Positions 32,531-38,931 of a stretch of 52,187 nucleotides of DNA are shown here, piece after piece. This DNA is from Deltaproteobacteria bacterium (GTDB lineage: Bacteria > Desulfobacterota > Desulfobacteria > Desulfobacterales > B30-G6). The notes beneath the pieces are model-generated. The model had not been told where the DNA came from. It saw nothing but the letters and a program-made list of their open reading frames with translations, and did not search any database. The stretch lies in assembly GCA_022340465.1 (NCBI GenBank), contig JAJDNW010000029.1:1-52187 (forward strand), read 5' to 3'. Made by a program: the position numbers and the translations under genes. Position 1 is the first letter of the stretch. Every line of letters begins with the position of its first letter.

Positions 32531-34249
32531 TTACGGCGCCTGCCGGACGTGAAGGGTGCGCATGCGGTTGATGGCCCCTGCGAGCTCGAAGGCCCTGAAG
32601 GCGGCGATATCCCCGGTCAAATAGGGTGTCAGGCATTCCAGGCCCCCGGCGGCCACGTCCTTCAGCACACAATCGACCACCTCCCTGAGGGTGCGCTGCC
32701 CGTCCATGTGACGCACGGCCCGGTGCATGCCGTGGGCCAGGCCCCGGGTCTGGGCGCTGTCGACGATCTGTTCCAGGTCACCCAGGTCGATGCGGGTGCG
32801 GCCAAACAGGATTTCCTTTCTTCGGGGGGCGGCGATTTTGGTTCGCCGGTGCTGGCTAAAAGGGTCGAAGCCCTGTTTCAAGGGGATGCGTTTTTTCAGC
32901 GCGCCGAACGGTTCGCCCCCTTCTGCGATGCGGCCGGTGTCGTTTTCCGCGGCGATGTCGTGCGCTCTTTCGGTGACGTCTTCGGGCCGGTAGTTGTTCA
33001 TGCGGATGACGGTGTCGGCCGCCTGAAAGTAATCCCCGGACCCGCCCATCACCAGCACGGTCGAAATGCCCAGATCATCGTAGAGTTGACGCACCCTGTC
33101 CACGAAGGGCGTGATGGGTTCGTTGGCCTTCTCCACCAGCATCTGCATGCGCCGGTCGCGAATCATGAAGTTGGTGGCCGAGGTGTCCTCGTCCAGGAGC
33201 AGGACTTTCGCGCCCGTTTCGATGGCCTCGGATATGTTGGCGGCCTGGGAGGTGCTGCCGCTGGCGTTGGCGGTGAAAAAGGCGTTGGTGTCCTTCTTGA
33301 ACGGCAGATTGTCGATAAAGGGCGAGATGTCTACGCCGGCCACGGATCGACCGTCGGCGGCCCTGATTTTAACGGCTGCTTCGAGGCTGACCGTCATTTC
33401 CCGACCGTCGCCGGGCAGGTGGTTGTAAACGCCCAGTTCCAGGGCGTTGAGCAGGGTCGACTTGCCGTGAAAACCGCCGCCGACAATCAGGGTAACCCCT
33501 TGGGGAATGCCCATCCCGCTGACAATGCCGCGGTTGGGCAGGCGCACTTTCGTTTTAAGGCTTGCCGGCGATTCAAAGCGGACGGCGAGACGTTCCTTCA
33601 GAGGTCCGGGATCGATGCCGCTGGCCCGCGGCAGGAGGGATCCGTCGCCCACGAAGCCGACCAGGCCCCTGTCGGCAATGATCCGGCGGAGGGTGTGTGC
33701 GTCTTCGGCCGTTTCGATGTGCTCCATGACCGCGGGCATGCTCAGGCTGCGGGCATAAAGCGATGCCTGCACGATTTTGGGGAGTTCCTCAAAAAACATG
33801 GCCCGTGCGTGCCGCCCGGATATTTTCCTGCCGACCGCCGGCAGGCCCATGAAGAAGCGCGCTTCCACCAACCGGTCATCCACGGCCATGGCGGTACGGG
33901 CCAGGATTTCCTGCGGGGGCCTGTCGATGGTGATCAGGCCGCTTTTGCCGGTTCCCCGCTCGCCCCGGGCAATGCGTGTGCAGCTGTGATGAAAGCTTCT
34001 GGTAAGATAGTCGCAAAGAGCGGTTTGCCGGCTGGGACTGGCGGTGGTTTCCGGACCGAAGCCGGAAACCGGACGCATCACGCGGGCGCGGATCCTCGAC
34101 GGGGCGGCGAAGGGATCGCCCTGGACATGATCGACAAAAAGCCTGAAGCCAGGAAAATCATAGACCCCCTCGATTTCCTTGTAGGTTTTATAGCCTCTGC
34201 CGTCGATGCGACGGAGGGTCTTTTCAAGATGGGAGCTCTCTTCGGTCAT
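32531..34249 (-). CDS. Predicted ATPase of the ABC class
   Basis: A 572-residue soluble protein of the ABC-ATPase family (probably PF09818). The Walker A is GGGFHGKSTLLNALELGVYNH, Walker B is AKVLLLDEDTSATNFMIRD, and a switch-like VLVMGGSGDYFQAADTVI follows. There is no membrane domain. Members are widespread but uncharacterised; they resemble SMC/RecF-type ATPases more than transporters. It lies 68 nt downstream of the selenoprotein gene on the same strand and may belong to that operon. Its C-terminal part (residues 450-560) is helical with no known motif. Confidence 0.85.
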   Translation of the reverse strand: MTEESSHLEKTLRRIDGRGYKTYKEIEGVYDFPGFRLFVDHVQGDPFAAPSRIRARVMRPVSGFGPETTASPSRQTALCDYLTRSFHHSCTRIARGERGTGKSGLITIDRPPQEILARTAMAVDDRLVEARFFMGLPAVGRKISGRHARAMFFEELPKIVQASLYARSLSMPAVMEHIETAEDAHTLRRIIADRGLVGFVGDGSLLPRASGIDPGPLKERLAVRFESPASLKTKVRLPNRGIVSGMGIPQGVTLIVGGGFHGKSTLLNALELGVYNHLPGDGREMTVSLEAAVKIRAADGRSVAGVDISPFIDNLPFKKDTNAFFTANASGSTSQAANISEAIETGAKVLLLDEDTSATNFMIRDRRMQMLVEKANEPITPFVDRVRQLYDDLGISTVLVMGGSGDYFQAADTVIRMNNYRPEDVTERAHDIAAENDTGRIAEGGEPFGALKKRIPLKQGFDPFSQHRRTKIAAPRRKEILFGRTRIDLGDLEQIVDSAQTRGLAHGMHRAVRHMDGQRTLREVVDCVLKDVAAGGLECLTPYLTGDIAAFRAFELAGAINRMRTLHVRQAP

Positions 34250-34317: not shown

Positions 34318-34953
34318 TCAATCCGTTTGCTTTTTGCGGTTGGCCTTGATCGCTTTATCGAGCGCCTTGGCATGCACGTTGCCGGCAAAGTGTACGGGGC
34401 TCTTACCGTAAATGGGATCCCAGCCGGCCGGGTCGGCGCTGCAAAAAAACTGAACCTCCAGGCCCATGCGAACGGCGGCCTCTTCAACCGGATAGCCGAT
34501 GATTTTCAGGGCCGCCTCCCAACTGGCCCCGCAGGGCGCACCGCGCACTACGGTCACGGCGGAAATTTTCCCACCGGCGACTTCGACTTCGTATTCCGGG
34601 GCGCCGAATCGGGCGCCGTACTCCCCCAGGCAGTCCTGCCGGGAAAGCCCGCATCAGGTCGGCGGCGTGGCCACGCCCTCCATTTTTACTTTTTTACCCG
34701 AGGCCACGACAGGAATACCTTTTTCACGGCACAGCAGGCCGAGGTCGTAGGACAGATCGGGGTGCGTGAGGAAATCCAGCACCAGGTCGGCATCGATATC
34801 ATCGGGCAGATAGTCGCGGGCGTCATCGATGACCGCCGGAAGCGGCGTGTCGATGGAGATCATCTCGAGGTCGAAGCGGTCCTGACCGAACTTTCTGATG
34901 CCGGCGATTTTGCTTTCACCGCTTCCGTTTTGTTGAAACACCAATACTTTCAA
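34318..34953 (-). CDS. dfsP: DUF166-family selenoprotein (UGA-encoded Sec100)
   Basis: A 211-residue protein read through one in-frame TGA (34656-34654) as selenocysteine 100, next to Cys101. Residues 1-99 (MKVLVFQQNGSGESKIAGIRKFG, DIDADLVLDFLTHPDLSYDL) and 102-211 (CLGEYGARFGAPEYEVEV, VVRGAPCGASWEAALKIIGY) are in the same frame and together make one DUF166 domain. A hairpin fitting a bacterial SECIS follows the TGA directly. Cys108 and the GAPC cysteine are further candidates for redox or metal binding. I recall this family being named DfsP with both Sec and Cys forms; the biochemical role is unknown. Its start overlaps the upstream small gene by 4 nt. An ordinary annotation would split it or call it a pseudogene. 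Confidence 0.85.
34621..34647 (-). promoter_or_regulatory. Bacterial SECIS element in the DUF166 gene
   Basis: Beginning 6 nt after the UGA, an outer 7-bp stem (5' arm CUUUCCC with 3' arm GGGGGAG), a single bulged U, an inner 4-bp stem (GGCA/UGCC) and the loop GGAC can form. The loop starts 17 nt after the UGA and begins with G. Size, distance, bulged U and loop G agree with the SelB-binding hairpins known for bacterial selenoprotein mRNAs. Confidence 0.75.
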
Positions 34954-35228
34954 AACCGGATAACCTCCTCCGGAGTCATAAGTTGCATGTTGCCGTCTGC
35001 ATCAACACCCAGGAATATATCCCCTTCAACATTGCCCGCAAGGATCGGATGACGGGATCTCAAGTTCGGAAAATCAAGTTGTTCAAGGGCCTGTTTCAGC
35101 AGGTCGATTTGTATTTCTATGTCCTGTCTGCCAAGTCGGTTTTTGAAATATCGGGACACATTTCTATTATAAAGCCGCTTGATTTCGGTTTCAACACAGT
35201 GCCGGCTCAGATCGAGCCGAATTTTCAC
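34950..35228 (-). CDS. Small protein of unknown function between radical SAM and selenoprotein genes
   Basis: A 92-residue protein starting MKIRLDLSRHCVETEIKRLYNR and ending TPEEVIRF. It is probably helical in its first half with a small beta domain after (GNVEGDIFLGVDADGNMQL). I do not recognise the family. GTG 35228 is preferred because it overlaps the radical SAM stop as GTGA; an in-frame ATG at 35249 would add 7 residues. Its stop overlaps the ATG of the selenoprotein gene (ATGA). Double overlap implies coupled translation and a stoichiometric partner, perhaps of the selenoprotein. Confidence 0.7.
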   Translation of the reverse strand: MKIRLDLSRHCVETEIKRLYNRNVSRYFKNRLGRQDIEIQIDLLKQALEQLDFPNLRSRHPILAGNVEGDIFLGVDADGNMQLMTPEEVIRF

Positions 35229-36832
35229 AGGTAATTCACCCACTCCCATTGCTTGAACCCCTCTTTTTCCGTCAGGCGCAGGTATCCGCCTCGCACGGCA
35301 TGACGCAGGGTGTTCAATATCTCTTCCCTGGACGGCTCAAGGAAATCCTGGATGCGTTCCACCAGGTGTTCCAATGCCGAATCGGTCGGCTCGCCCCGGG
35401 CACTGTCCGGCATATCCCCTGGAACAGGACCCAGGTTTTCGAGCACCCGCTTCATCATCATGTCATAAAGCAAAACGGTGTGTTCCAGGTTGGTCAGGGG
35501 CCAGGCCTCTTCTTCATCTGCTTCTCCGCTGGCTCTTCTGGTTTTTATTTTGTCCAGCCAGATGTCAAAGTTCTTTTCCCAGTCCAAAACCACTTTATCG
35601 AGCATTTCCCGGGTGGCCCCCCTGGTGCTGACGATGGCCCGGTTGGCGTGGTAGTCGTTCCAGTCGTGGCTTTCTATCTTGAGGTCGTAGTTACGGCAAT
35701 TCTCCCGCACCGCGGTGCCCGGAAACGGTGCCAGGAGATGGAAGCCGTACAGGACCCCCATGGCTTTCAGTTTTTCGCCGAAGGCCACGGTTTCGGCGAT
35801 GGTTTCGCGCGTTTCTCCGGGAAGCCCTAAAATAAAGGAGGCATGCGGGGTGATGCCGGCATCCGTGCACATCTCAACCGCGGCAACCACCTGATCCAGG
35901 GTGATGCCCTTTTTAATCCTCTTGAGCATTTCCGGATTGCCCGTCTCGACCCCGAAACTGACGGCCGTGCATCCGGCGGCCTTCATCCGCTGCAAAACCT
36001 CCGGCGATACCGTGTCCACTCTGGCAAACGAGGTCCAGCGCACATCCATTCCGCGGGCGATGATTTCATCACATACGGACAGGCAGTGCCTGGGGGCCGC
36101 AGTGAACAGGTCGTCGGCGATATTGATCTGGCTGAAATCGAGGCGGTCGAGATAGGCCAGCTCGTCCACGACCTTCAGGGGGTTGCGGTATCTTACCCTG
36201 CCGCCCACCATTTTACGGCCGACGCAGAAGATGCACTTGAAAGGGCAGCCCCGACTGGTGGTCATGCTGACGGGCAGTCCCAGGGCGCGGTAGCGGCCAA
36301 GGGGAACGAGATGGCGGGCCGGATCGGGAAGGGTGTCGATGTTTTGGATGAAAGGCCGCGGCCCGGACGACGAGATTCCATCGCCGTCCCGGTAGACCAG
36401 TCCCCTGATGTGCGACCAGCTTTCCGGCCGCCGGGGGGACGCAACCAGTTCGACAACGGTTTCCTCGCCTTCACCCAGAACCACGAAGTCTATTTCCGGC
36501 ACCGCCCGCATGGTTTCCTCGGCACAGAAGGTGACATGCGGGCCGCCCATGACGGTCATGATGTCGGGAGAGAGTGACTTGACGTCCCTGAGAACGGAAA
36601 GGGCATTTTCGATATTCATGGTCACGGCGGTAAAGCCGACAAATTGTGGGTCGAATCGCTTCAGTATCGACTGCAACCGCTTTTTAGCGTAGGGGAATAC
36701 CACCAGGTCGAGAATTTCGACATCGACACCGGCCGCCTCGAGGGCCCCTGCTAAAAATGCCAGGCCCAGGGGGGGGGAGGGTGTTTCCGAAATGGGGTAA
36801 AACGGGTTTACCAGTAAGAATCGCGCGGTCAT
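35225..36832 (-). CDS. B12-binding-domain radical SAM protein
   Basis: A 535-residue protein with an N-terminal cobalamin-binding-type Rossmann domain (NPFYPISETPSPPLGLAFLAGALEAAG; VMGGPHVTF) and a radical SAM barrel. The [4Fe-4S] cysteines are Cys196, Cys200 and Cys203 in RGCPFKCIFCVG. GVETGNPEMLKRIKKG and FILGLPGETRETI are the SAM-binding strands. The C-terminal 150 residues are helical and lack extra Cys clusters. Class-B radical SAM enzymes of this form do methyl transfers or rearrangements; the product is unknown. It is the first gene of the unit with the 92-residue protein and the DUF166 selenoprotein, so it may act on, or with, that protein. Confidence 0.88.
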   Translation of the reverse strand: MTARFLLVNPFYPISETPSPPLGLAFLAGALEAAGVDVEILDLVVFPYAKKRLQSILKRFDPQFVGFTAVTMNIENALSVLRDVKSLSPDIMTVMGGPHVTFCAEETMRAVPEIDFVVLGEGEETVVELVASPRRPESWSHIRGLVYRDGDGISSSGPRPFIQNIDTLPDPARHLVPLGRYRALGLPVSMTTSRGCPFKCIFCVGRKMVGGRVRYRNPLKVVDELAYLDRLDFSQINIADDLFTAAPRHCLSVCDEIIARGMDVRWTSFARVDTVSPEVLQRMKAAGCTAVSFGVETGNPEMLKRIKKGITLDQVVAAVEMCTDAGITPHASFILGLPGETRETIAETVAFGEKLKAMGVLYGFHLLAPFPGTAVRENCRNYDLKIESHDWNDYHANRAIVSTRGATREMLDKVVLDWEKNFDIWLDKIKTRRASGEADEEEAWPLTNLEHTVLLYDMMMKRVLENLGPVPGDMPDSARGEPTDSALEHLVERIQDFLEPSREEILNTLRHAVRGGYLRLTEKEGFKQWEWVNYL

Positions 36833-37092: not shown

Positions 37093-37168
37093 GCGGCGTT
37101 TCGTCCGGCGTAACCCGCAGAGCGAAGACAAAAGCCGCAGTTCATAAAATCGGGGAGTCCGATTTTAT
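37093..37168 (-). repeat. Stop-codon hairpin and GCGGC module after fhs
   Basis: ATAAAATCGG-GGAGT-CCGATTTTAT (37144-37168) is a perfect 10-bp stem overlapping the fhs stop. GCGGC (37093) and GCCGC (37134-37138) enclose a sequence that on the minus strand reads GTCTTCGCTCTGCGGGTT, a relative of the module after the acyl-CoA dehydrogenase. Confidence 0.6.
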
Positions 37169-38931
37169 TAGAACAGTCCGGAGACCTTTCCGGTGTCAGT
37201 GTCCACATCGACTCTTCTGAAGGCCGGGTTGGAACCGGTTCCCGGCATCAGGCTGATGGTGCCGGCACAGGGGCACAGGAACTTGGCGCCCGAGTAGATC
37301 AGTACGTCGCGAATCGGCAGCCGCCATCCTTTGGGTACCCCCTTGATGGTGGGGTCGTGGCTCAGGCTGAGATGGGTTTTGACCATCATGGTGGCGAAAT
37401 CCGCGTACTTGGGATCGTTTTCCAGCATCTTGGCCTTGGATTCGGCTTCCGGCTGCCAATCGACACCATCGGCACCGTAGACCTCTTTGGCAATGAGATC
37501 GACGCGGTCGCGCAGTTTCATTTCCAGCGGATACAGGAATTTGAACTCATTCTCTTCGTTGCAGGCGTCGATGACGGCATCGGCAAATTCCAGGGCACCC
37601 TCGCCGCCCTTTTCCCAATGCTTGGACTCGGCACAGCGCGCGCCGGCCGCTTCGGCTGCCTTGCGCACGATCGCGCACTCGGCATCGGTGTCGGTGTAGA
37701 AGCGGTTGATGCATACCACCGGGTTGATGCCGGCCTTGCGGATGGTGTTGATGTGATGGACCATGTTTTCGCAGCCCTTTTCCACCAACTCCAGATTCTC
37801 CTTGGTGTATTCTTCGGGCAGGGCGATGCCGGCCACGACTTTGGGGCCTCCGCCGTGCATCTTGAGAGCGCGGATGGTGGATGTCAGAACGGACACATGG
37901 GGTTTCAGGCCGCTGAAACGGCATTTGACGTTCCAGAATTTTTCGAAACCGATGTCCGCTGCAAAGCCGCTTTCGGTGACATGGTAGTCGAAAAGTTTCA
38001 GGCCGACACGGTCGGCAATGATGGAAGACTGGCCCACGGCGATGTTGGCAAACGGTCCGGCGTGCACCATGCAGGGATTGTACTCGGCCGTGCACATCAG
38101 GGTGGGGTTGATGGTGTTGCGCATGAAGGCGGTCATGGCGTTGCCCACTTCGAGGTCGCCGGTGGTAACGGGCTTGCCGCTCTTGTCAAAGGCCACCGTG
38201 ATGTCATTCAGGCGTTGCTTCAGATCCGCCAGATTACGGATTACCGCCAGAATGGCCATACATTCGGAACCCACGGCGATGCCGAACTTGGACTGCATGG
38301 TGAAACCGTCAAAACGGCCGCCGATACCGATGATGATGTTGCGCAGGGCCTGGGCGCAGAAATCCATGATCCAGCCCAGCTCGATGCGGGTGGGGTCGAT
38401 GTCCAGCCGCCGCATACCGGTCAGGCGCTGTAGCTGTTCGTCGTTGTAGTTGCGCTCGTGCTGCATGCGGGAGGTCATCGCCACCATGGCCAGGTTGTGG
38501 GCGTTCATGATGTCGTTGATGTCGCCGGTCAATCCAAGAGAGAACTCGGTCATGGGAATCAACAGGCTGTTGCCGCCGCCGGCCGCGGTACCCTTGACAT
38601 TCATGGTGGGGCCGCCCGATGGCTGCCTGAGGGCGCCGCCCACATTAACTCCGCGCATTCCCAGGCCTTCCATGAGGCCGCAGGAGGTGGTGCTTTTGCC
38701 TTCTCCCAGCGGTGTGGGGGTGATGGCGGTAACTTCGATGTACTTGCCGTCGGGCTTGTTCTGCAGACGGTCGATAATTTTCAGAAAATCGAGTTTTGCC
38801 AGCCTGCCCATGGGGAGAATCTCGTCTTTTTCAAGGCCGAGCTTGTCCCGCCATTCATCCGGTGACGGCATGTTTTTTTCTGCTTCTTCGGAAATCTGCC
38901 AATCAGCCATTTCTACTGCATTGTATGACAT
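37168..38931 (-). CDS. fhs: Formate-tetrahydrofolate ligase
   Basis: A 587-residue enzyme making 10-formyl-THF from formate, THF and ATP. In complete oxidisers it usually runs in the reverse Wood-Ljungdahl direction to release formate. The nucleotide-binding [11 protein letters not shown] lies at residues 71-81. [37 protein letters not shown] and [11 protein letters not shown] are conserved FTHFS segments. It is about 30 residues longer than the classic 557-residue acetogen form. AAAAAAGGAGG lies before the ATG. It appears to be a single-gene unit with its own terminator. Confidence 0.96.

Follow-up and report, generated by a model that had tools for sequence, protein, structure and literature searches.

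A DfsP-family (DUF166) gene with a probable selenocysteine codon in a Desulfobacterales genome, and a tentative link of the family to one-carbon metabolism

The window, by which we mean the whole 52,187-nucleotide stretch of DNA analysed here, carries on its minus strand a short gene, dfsP, together with the following neighbours.

32531..34249, minus strand: ABC-class P-loop ATPase, downstream of dfsP (Pfam ABC_N, ABC_ATPase and MRB1590_C)
34318..34953, minus strand: dfsP, predicted DUF166 selenoprotein gene of 211 residues, TTG start, TGA stop at 34318-34320 (Pfam and NCBIfam profiles)
34950..35249, minus strand: 99-aa gene, upstream, overlapping dfsP by TTGA; no family assigned
35225..36832, minus strand: B12-binding radical SAM protein, upstream (PF02310 and PF04055)
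37168..38931, minus strand: formate--tetrahydrofolate ligase (fhs), upstream (NF010032, 1098 bits against a cut-off of 938)

The dfsP frame is open from the TTG at 34953 to the TGA stop at 34318-34320, and its sole interruption is the TGA at codon 100 (34654-34656), which is followed by a Cys codon (34651-34653), as the initial annotation of this DNA had stated. That annotation had also read a single DUF166 domain across the TGA, and the profiles agree: the whole read-through product matched Pfam PF02593 (DUF166) with 153 bits over profile positions 2-220 of 221. The NCBIfam model NF041372, named "DUF166 family (seleno)protein DfsP", matched it with 339.2 bits over positions 2-203 of 203, above the curated cut-off of 200, and a UGA is present at residue 100. 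We regard dfsP as an intact member of the already catalogued DfsP family and not as a broken gene. Its start overlaps the stop of the upstream gene in the shared TTGA, in line with the earlier proposal of coupling to the neighbour. At E up to 0.01 this 99-aa gene matched neither Pfam nor NCBIfam, and its relatives were found only in two genomes of the same genus among the 23 loci searched. The radical SAM protein scored below the cut-off of every NCBIfam model among the 25 of 38 listed.

Within dfsP, we mapped the following features on either side of the likely selenocysteine (Sec) codon.

34654..34656, minus strand: in-frame UGA, residue 100, predicted selenocysteine (frame reading; Sec/Cys column in relatives)
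34621..34647, minus strand: putative SECIS hairpin, lower stem 34641-34647 paired with 34621-34627, bulged U at 34628
34629..34640, minus strand: apical stem of the putative SECIS, 34637-34640 paired with 34629-34632, loop GGAC at 34633-34636 (fold and comparison)

How is codon 100 occupied in related genes? DUF166 was found in 24 of 58 genomes (the window's own included), and codon 100 of these 24 genes is a single TGA in 16 and Cys in 8. A scan of named genomes gave 274 relatives, from which the best 80 loci were retained, a few genomes being represented twice; here the codon is TGA in 65, TGC or TGT in 15 and anything else in none. The cultivated Desulfopila aestuarii and Desulfoprunum benzoelyticum are among the carriers of the TGA form. 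Thus, the suggestion that Cys should occupy position 100 in the members without Sec was borne out in all 15 such loci of the 80 and in all 8 of the 24. A check for further frame damage showed none of the 80 loci to have another internal stop within its matched stretch; two extra stops, in L073 and L074, both lie at the C-terminal ends. On a quick tree of the 81 DfsP proteins of the resulting set (79 of them distinct), at least 6 exchanges between Sec and Cys are needed, 2 of which are forced by starred branches; many branches of the tree are weak. In a sample of 395 genomes of the phylum, DUF166 exceeded the cut-off in 82, and 25 of these 82 have a TGA somewhere in the match. The N-terminal part is missing from a few DUF166 matches (L025 and several in the 395-genome sample). 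The genome LT984854.1 has two dfsP copies, one with the UGA (L089) and the other with Cys (L130), and this pair offers a natural test of what Sec contributes. Another contig, JARLGZ010000127.1 (L088), is labelled Puia sp. (Bacteroidota), and its dfsP protein is identical over the compared stretch to that of the Syntrophobacteraceae MAG L087; it is probably mislabelled or misbinned.

Comparison of the closest relatives points to purifying selection on both halves of dfsP, with dN/dS well below 1. Compared with the window gene, the same-genus relative L067 gave dN/dS of 0.08/1.02 before the UGA and 0.18/2.34 after it, and the second, L068, gave 0.10/0.90 and 0.15/0.93; for a third relative (L072), divergence was too great to estimate dS. 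The column occupied by TGA or Cys only, together with selection on both sides, upholds the earlier preference for UGA read-through over a pseudogene.

The hairpin directly after the UGA had been described as two stems of 7 and 4 bp, separated by a bulged U and capped by a GGAC loop that lies 17 nt past the UGA. We recovered exactly this structure, but its 7-bp lower stem did not hold up as a conserved feature. As a single fold, considered without relatives, the hairpin is only mildly unusual (-17.4 kcal/mol, z -2.1, with 10 of 200 shuffles equally good). Comparison of the genes is more telling. At least three of the four apical pairs together with a GG loop occur in 60 of 63 distinct Sec-type genes (window included) vs none of 13 Cys-type genes, the GG loop alone in 63 of 63 vs 2 of 13, and the mean folding energy of the 27-nt region is -11.3 kcal/mol in the Sec-type vs -5.6 kcal/mol in the Cys-type. 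On the other side, protein coding by itself would yield such an apical stem and loop in 7004 of 12600 synonymous recodings of Sec-type genes. All 62 distinct Sec-type relatives have the GG loop; of the four apical pairs, three are formed in 61, 60 and 62 of these relatives and the one that closes the loop in 35. For the pairs of the lower stem, counted outwards from the bulge, the figures are 39, 33, 61, 19, 25, 40 and 5 of the same 62 relatives, and the inner three do no better in Sec-type (133 of 186 cells) than in Cys-type genes (28 of 39); we see no conservation of this stem. The bulged U never varies, whether a gene is Sec-type or Cys-type. Because the apical stem and GG loop go with the Sec-type and not with the Cys-type genes, we take the element after the UGA to be a SECIS, a GG-loop hairpin being the criterion applied to bacterial selenoproteins. 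The RNA element also seems to influence the protein sequence: Arg-Gln stands at residues 105-106 in 58 of the 63 Sec-type and none of the 13 Cys-type genes (L032, a Cys-type gene among the first 24, does have Arg-Gln there), and codon 105 is AGG in 44 of the 63, as expected if the hairpin dictates the codon, whereas 33 of the 232 Arg codons of five genes in the window are AGG. A search with Rfam at gathering thresholds gave zero matches in the window, a result that is uninformative because we know of no general bacterial SECIS model in Rfam.

The selenium machinery that the initial annotation had proposed looking for, selA, selB, selC and selD, is all present in the same genome. In the window's assembly (4.39 Mb, 162 contigs, 95% complete), profile searches gave selB with 374 bits, selA with 593 bits and selD with 386 bits, each above its curated cut-off, and tRNA-Sec (selC) with 75 bits against a gathering score of 47. 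The selD match of this genome (L041, contig C13:29872-30798) itself holds one in-frame TGA, and the selenophosphate synthetase may thus be a second selenoprotein. None of the three refuting outcomes named in the initial annotation was therefore observed: the machinery is there, Cys or Sec fills the column, and relatives show no added damage to the frame.

We consider it very probable that dfsP is a selenoprotein gene in which UGA 100 is decoded as Sec with the aid of SelB, tRNA-Sec and the hairpin. The ribosome would read codon 100 as selenocysteine, insertion would be directed by the SECIS hairpin just 3′ of the UGA through SelB and tRNA-Sec, and the product would be a DUF166 protein of 211 residues with a Sec100-Cys101 pair. 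Three other readings of the interrupted frame have to be weighed against this one. That the TGA arose by nonsense mutation or through a sequencing error might be suggested by an assembly as fragmentary as this one, and a single stop is the simplest kind of damage; nevertheless, the same TGA recurs in 65 of 80 loci on separate public contigs with Cys in the other 15, the matched stretches contain no further stop, and purifying selection is seen on both sides. The column pattern already refutes this idea, to which we give a negligible probability. Decoding as some other amino acid, through a changed code or plain suppression, would preserve the frame just as well by read-through alone, and we found no specific support for it. 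Against it stand the complete Sec machinery of the genome, the exchange of the codon with Cys only and the GG-loop hairpin that accompanies the UGA; moreover, UGA serves as the stop of dfsP and of the upstream gene and is therefore not reassigned throughout, and this reading, too, seems hardly credible. The two fragments do appear as ORFs of 99 aa and 79 aa, as they would if the UGA were a real stop and the 3′ half were translated separately as one of two coupled proteins. However, 8 of the 24 DUF166 genes in related genomes are uninterrupted, and the second frame offers no ATG, GTG or TTG until 33 codons past the UGA (GTG 34557), so that Cys101 and its surroundings would be left untranslated; we regard two proteins as very improbable. 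Genes with an in-frame UGA are easily split or labelled pseudogenes, and the evidence of the column and the hairpin settles the case of dfsP.

Apart from the Sec codon, four residues stand out in the alignments, and a comparison with more distant members was made with 20 loci picked by hand from 59 TGA-less DUF166 rows of the 395-genome sample, which gave 25 aligned fragments.

34651..34653, minus strand: Cys101, invariant in 81 of 81 DfsP rows; C in 19 of 19 distant fragments covering it, a gap in 6 more
34531..34533, minus strand: Cys141, within the motif GAPCGA; present in all 81 DfsP rows and in all 20 distant fragments covering it
34441..34443, minus strand: Cys171, present in all 81 DfsP rows; of the 20 distant fragments covering it, 16 have C and 4 have P with a Cys at the next position
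34390..34392, minus strand: His188, within the motif SPVH; present in all 81 DfsP rows and in all 20 distant fragments covering it

Sec/Cys100 and His194 are likewise invariant in the 81 DfsP proteins. Of the 19 distant fragments that cover column 100, 9 have C there, 6 have F and 4 have L. Because this column varies while Cys101 is kept, the Sec site is an extra residue of the DfsP branch and its nearer kin, placed beside a widely kept Cys. A redox or metal site formed by the Sec-Cys pair, as had been suggested earlier, is plausible.

The neighbours of dfsP differ between lineages. The fhs and radical SAM genes of the window recur only within the genus and family (3 of the 23 loci). In the window, dfsP is neither in nor beside a CODH/ACS operon, and the nearest C1 gene identified is fhs. 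In relatives of the Desulfobulbales type, dfsP often lies downstream of formate dehydrogenase genes and a 131-aa protein. An FdhA-like match is present in the flanks of 11 of the 80 close loci, one of the ten listed being distant (29% identity), and the protein of about 131 aa lies within 400 bp upstream of dfsP in 14 of the 80 (16 of 80 by tblastn); an example of it (L095:5551-5946) had no Pfam match. A two-domain ABC ATPase of about 630 aa (e.g., L047:2930-4843), which is not in the window, is found within 400 bp upstream in 11 of the 80, and its Pfam domains make it ABC-F-like in L047 and L063. In two distant members, L151 and L152, DUF166 lies inside a CODH/ACS operon. The order in L152 is pterin-binding methyltransferase, CdhD, CdhA, DUF166, CdhB, CdhC and CdhE, all of the Cdh proteins exceeding their NCBIfam cut-offs and the methyltransferase falling below; L151 is the same gene for gene. 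Within the flanks compared, a CdhE homologue lies near DUF166 in 6 of the 20 hand-picked distant loci and in 3 of the 80 close ones (all 3 Sec-type), and among these nine homologues only those of L152 and L122 are named as such by NCBIfam. A ParA/MinD-like ATPase, placed weakly with MinD by NCBIfam, lies near 6 of the 20 distant DUF166 genes, and in L154 to L157 its end is no more than 15 nt from the DUF166 match; we presume this ATPase to be CooC-like.

We counted co-occurrence in the 395-genome sample of the phylum. CdhC, the domain of acetyl-CoA synthase, is present in 75 of 82 genomes with DUF166 vs 194 of 313 without it (Fisher p 5e-8; 177 of the 313 when weak CdhC matches are dropped), and a control with dsrA gave 37 of 82 vs 153 of 313 (p 0.62), i.e., no association; both comparisons use raw counts and ignore phylogeny. 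Since CdhC is common in genomes without DUF166, DUF166 is not required for CdhC.

AlphaFold2 models in which Cys replaced Sec were confident, with a mean pLDDT of 94 over the full length and of 92 when the C-terminal half was modelled. The N-terminal half is Rossmann-like, and the full-length model had no convincing structural neighbour (best Foldseek E 6e-3; Z up to 6.5). Because most of the full-length rows cover the Rossmann-like half only, the C-terminal half was modelled alone; 25 of its 50 listed structural neighbours are IscU/ISCU or SufU chains, judged by title and length. The best neighbour of the IscU type has a Z of 7.7, below 8 (3.0 A over 91 residues), and the first row is a Mycobacterium CO dehydrogenase chain (Z 8.0, 4.7 A over 104), in a Z comparison that covered the 268 chains offered by Foldseek. 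Foldseek itself gave the best IscU row an E of 0.49 and placed a lipoate ligase on top at E 0.41. IscU had been suspected from the sequence before these structural matches were seen. The IscU family model PF01592, searched with the C-terminal half of three members and one distant whole domain, gave no match at E up to 10, so that DfsP falls outside IscU/NifU_N as defined by the family profile. An hhalign comparison of a narrow DUF166 alignment with IscU (27 of 30 NifU_N loci accepted, one of them misplaced) gave 0.7% probability, and a wider DUF166 set against 26 IscU rows, the misplaced one having been dropped, gave 1.4%. In the wider comparison, 1 of 60 column shuffles equalled the local score, and reversing the alignment gave 11.3 vs 16.9, but 23 of 60 shuffles attained the global score. 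The local profile alignment, at about 1% probability, pairs Cys141 with an IscU cysteine, and a profile search of PDB sequences returned nothing credible. We therefore claim no homology to IscU, for which the sequences give no support. The IscU-like fold predicted for the Cys-rich C-terminal half is a lead and not evidence of membership.

What might the protein do? We propose, as a tentative assignment with slightly less than an even chance, that DUF166 serves one-carbon or CODH/ACS metabolism in anaerobes and that Sec-Cys with Cys141, Cys171 and His188 forms a putative redox or metal-binding site; we infer this role from the operon context, the co-occurrence with CdhC and the dsrA control. 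The Sec-Cys pair would work with these residues in redox or metal chemistry for C1 metabolism, and, more speculatively, DfsP might be an IscU-like carrier or repair protein for CODH/ACS clusters. That DfsP is specifically an IscU-like cluster scaffold or carrier seems unlikely to us. Slightly more doubtful still is the full proposal that DUF166 is an unrecognised CODH/ACS-associated family, in which a Rossmann-like N-terminal half is followed by an IscU-like scaffold whose role would be to carry or insert a metal cluster for the Wood-Ljungdahl enzymes, with Sec beside one of the presumed cluster cysteines in the DfsP branch; if so, this branch would be an Fe-S/Ni assembly-type protein that uses Sec. 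An alternative with nearly an even chance of its own is that DfsP acts in thiol/selenol redox chemistry generally, with no connection to CODH/ACS, and that lineage explains its co-occurrence with CdhC. In its favour, the neighbours of the Sec-type genes vary (the ABC ATPase in 11, the 131-aa protein in 14 and formate dehydrogenase in 11 of 80 loci), and the association statistics take no account of phylogeny. Counting against the CODH/ACS role, CODH/ACS genes are in the flanks of only 3 of the 80 close loci, and a CdhC match also occurs in 194 of 313 genomes without DUF166. The general redox reading fits less well with the position of DUF166 inside the CODH/ACS operon in two distant members, with the CdhE-like genes near seven more loci and with a dsrA control that lacks any such association.

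Previous work has already placed this family among the selenoproteins. The DUF166 domain-containing protein is entered as a selenoprotein family of prokaryotes in two reviews, under pfam02593 in one and under NF041372 in the other, and both cite for it a 2007 study of the Olavius algarvensis symbiont; where they list the family, no function is given (PMC9312934, PMC13188914). The selenoprotein claim for DUF166 is therefore not new, and the dfsP gene of the window is one more member. COG1810 (MMP0976) appears in a table of proteins specific to methanogens and A. fulgidus, which also includes the CODH subunit MMP0984 (PMC1852104). Our search of the open-licence literature for DUF166, COG1810, DfsP and MMP0976 found no paper linking DUF166 to CODH/ACS. 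What would be new here is the functional proposal, namely, a thiol/selenol protein linked to C1 and CODH/ACS metabolism, perhaps a carrier of metal clusters. The CODH/ACS context, the co-occurrence and the IscU-like model give DfsP a testable function in a pathway that is central to anaerobic carbon fixation.

Compared with the known systems, the window gene resembles the catalogued DfsP family (NF041372) in both the profile match and the Sec/Cys column, with no difference of substance. It has the same domain as PF02593/COG1810 of methanogens, Archaeoglobus and other anaerobes, MMP0976 being the DUF166 gene of Methanococcus maripaludis, and Cys101, Cys141, Cys171 and His188 are largely common to the distant bacterial members. 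Unlike the DfsP branch, the distant DUF166 forms have Phe or Leu before Cys101 in 10 of 19 of the bacterial fragments compared. The likeness to the IscU/NifU N-terminal domain (PF01592) consists of the fold of the DfsP model and the pairing of Cys141, whereas the sequence profiles of the two do not match.
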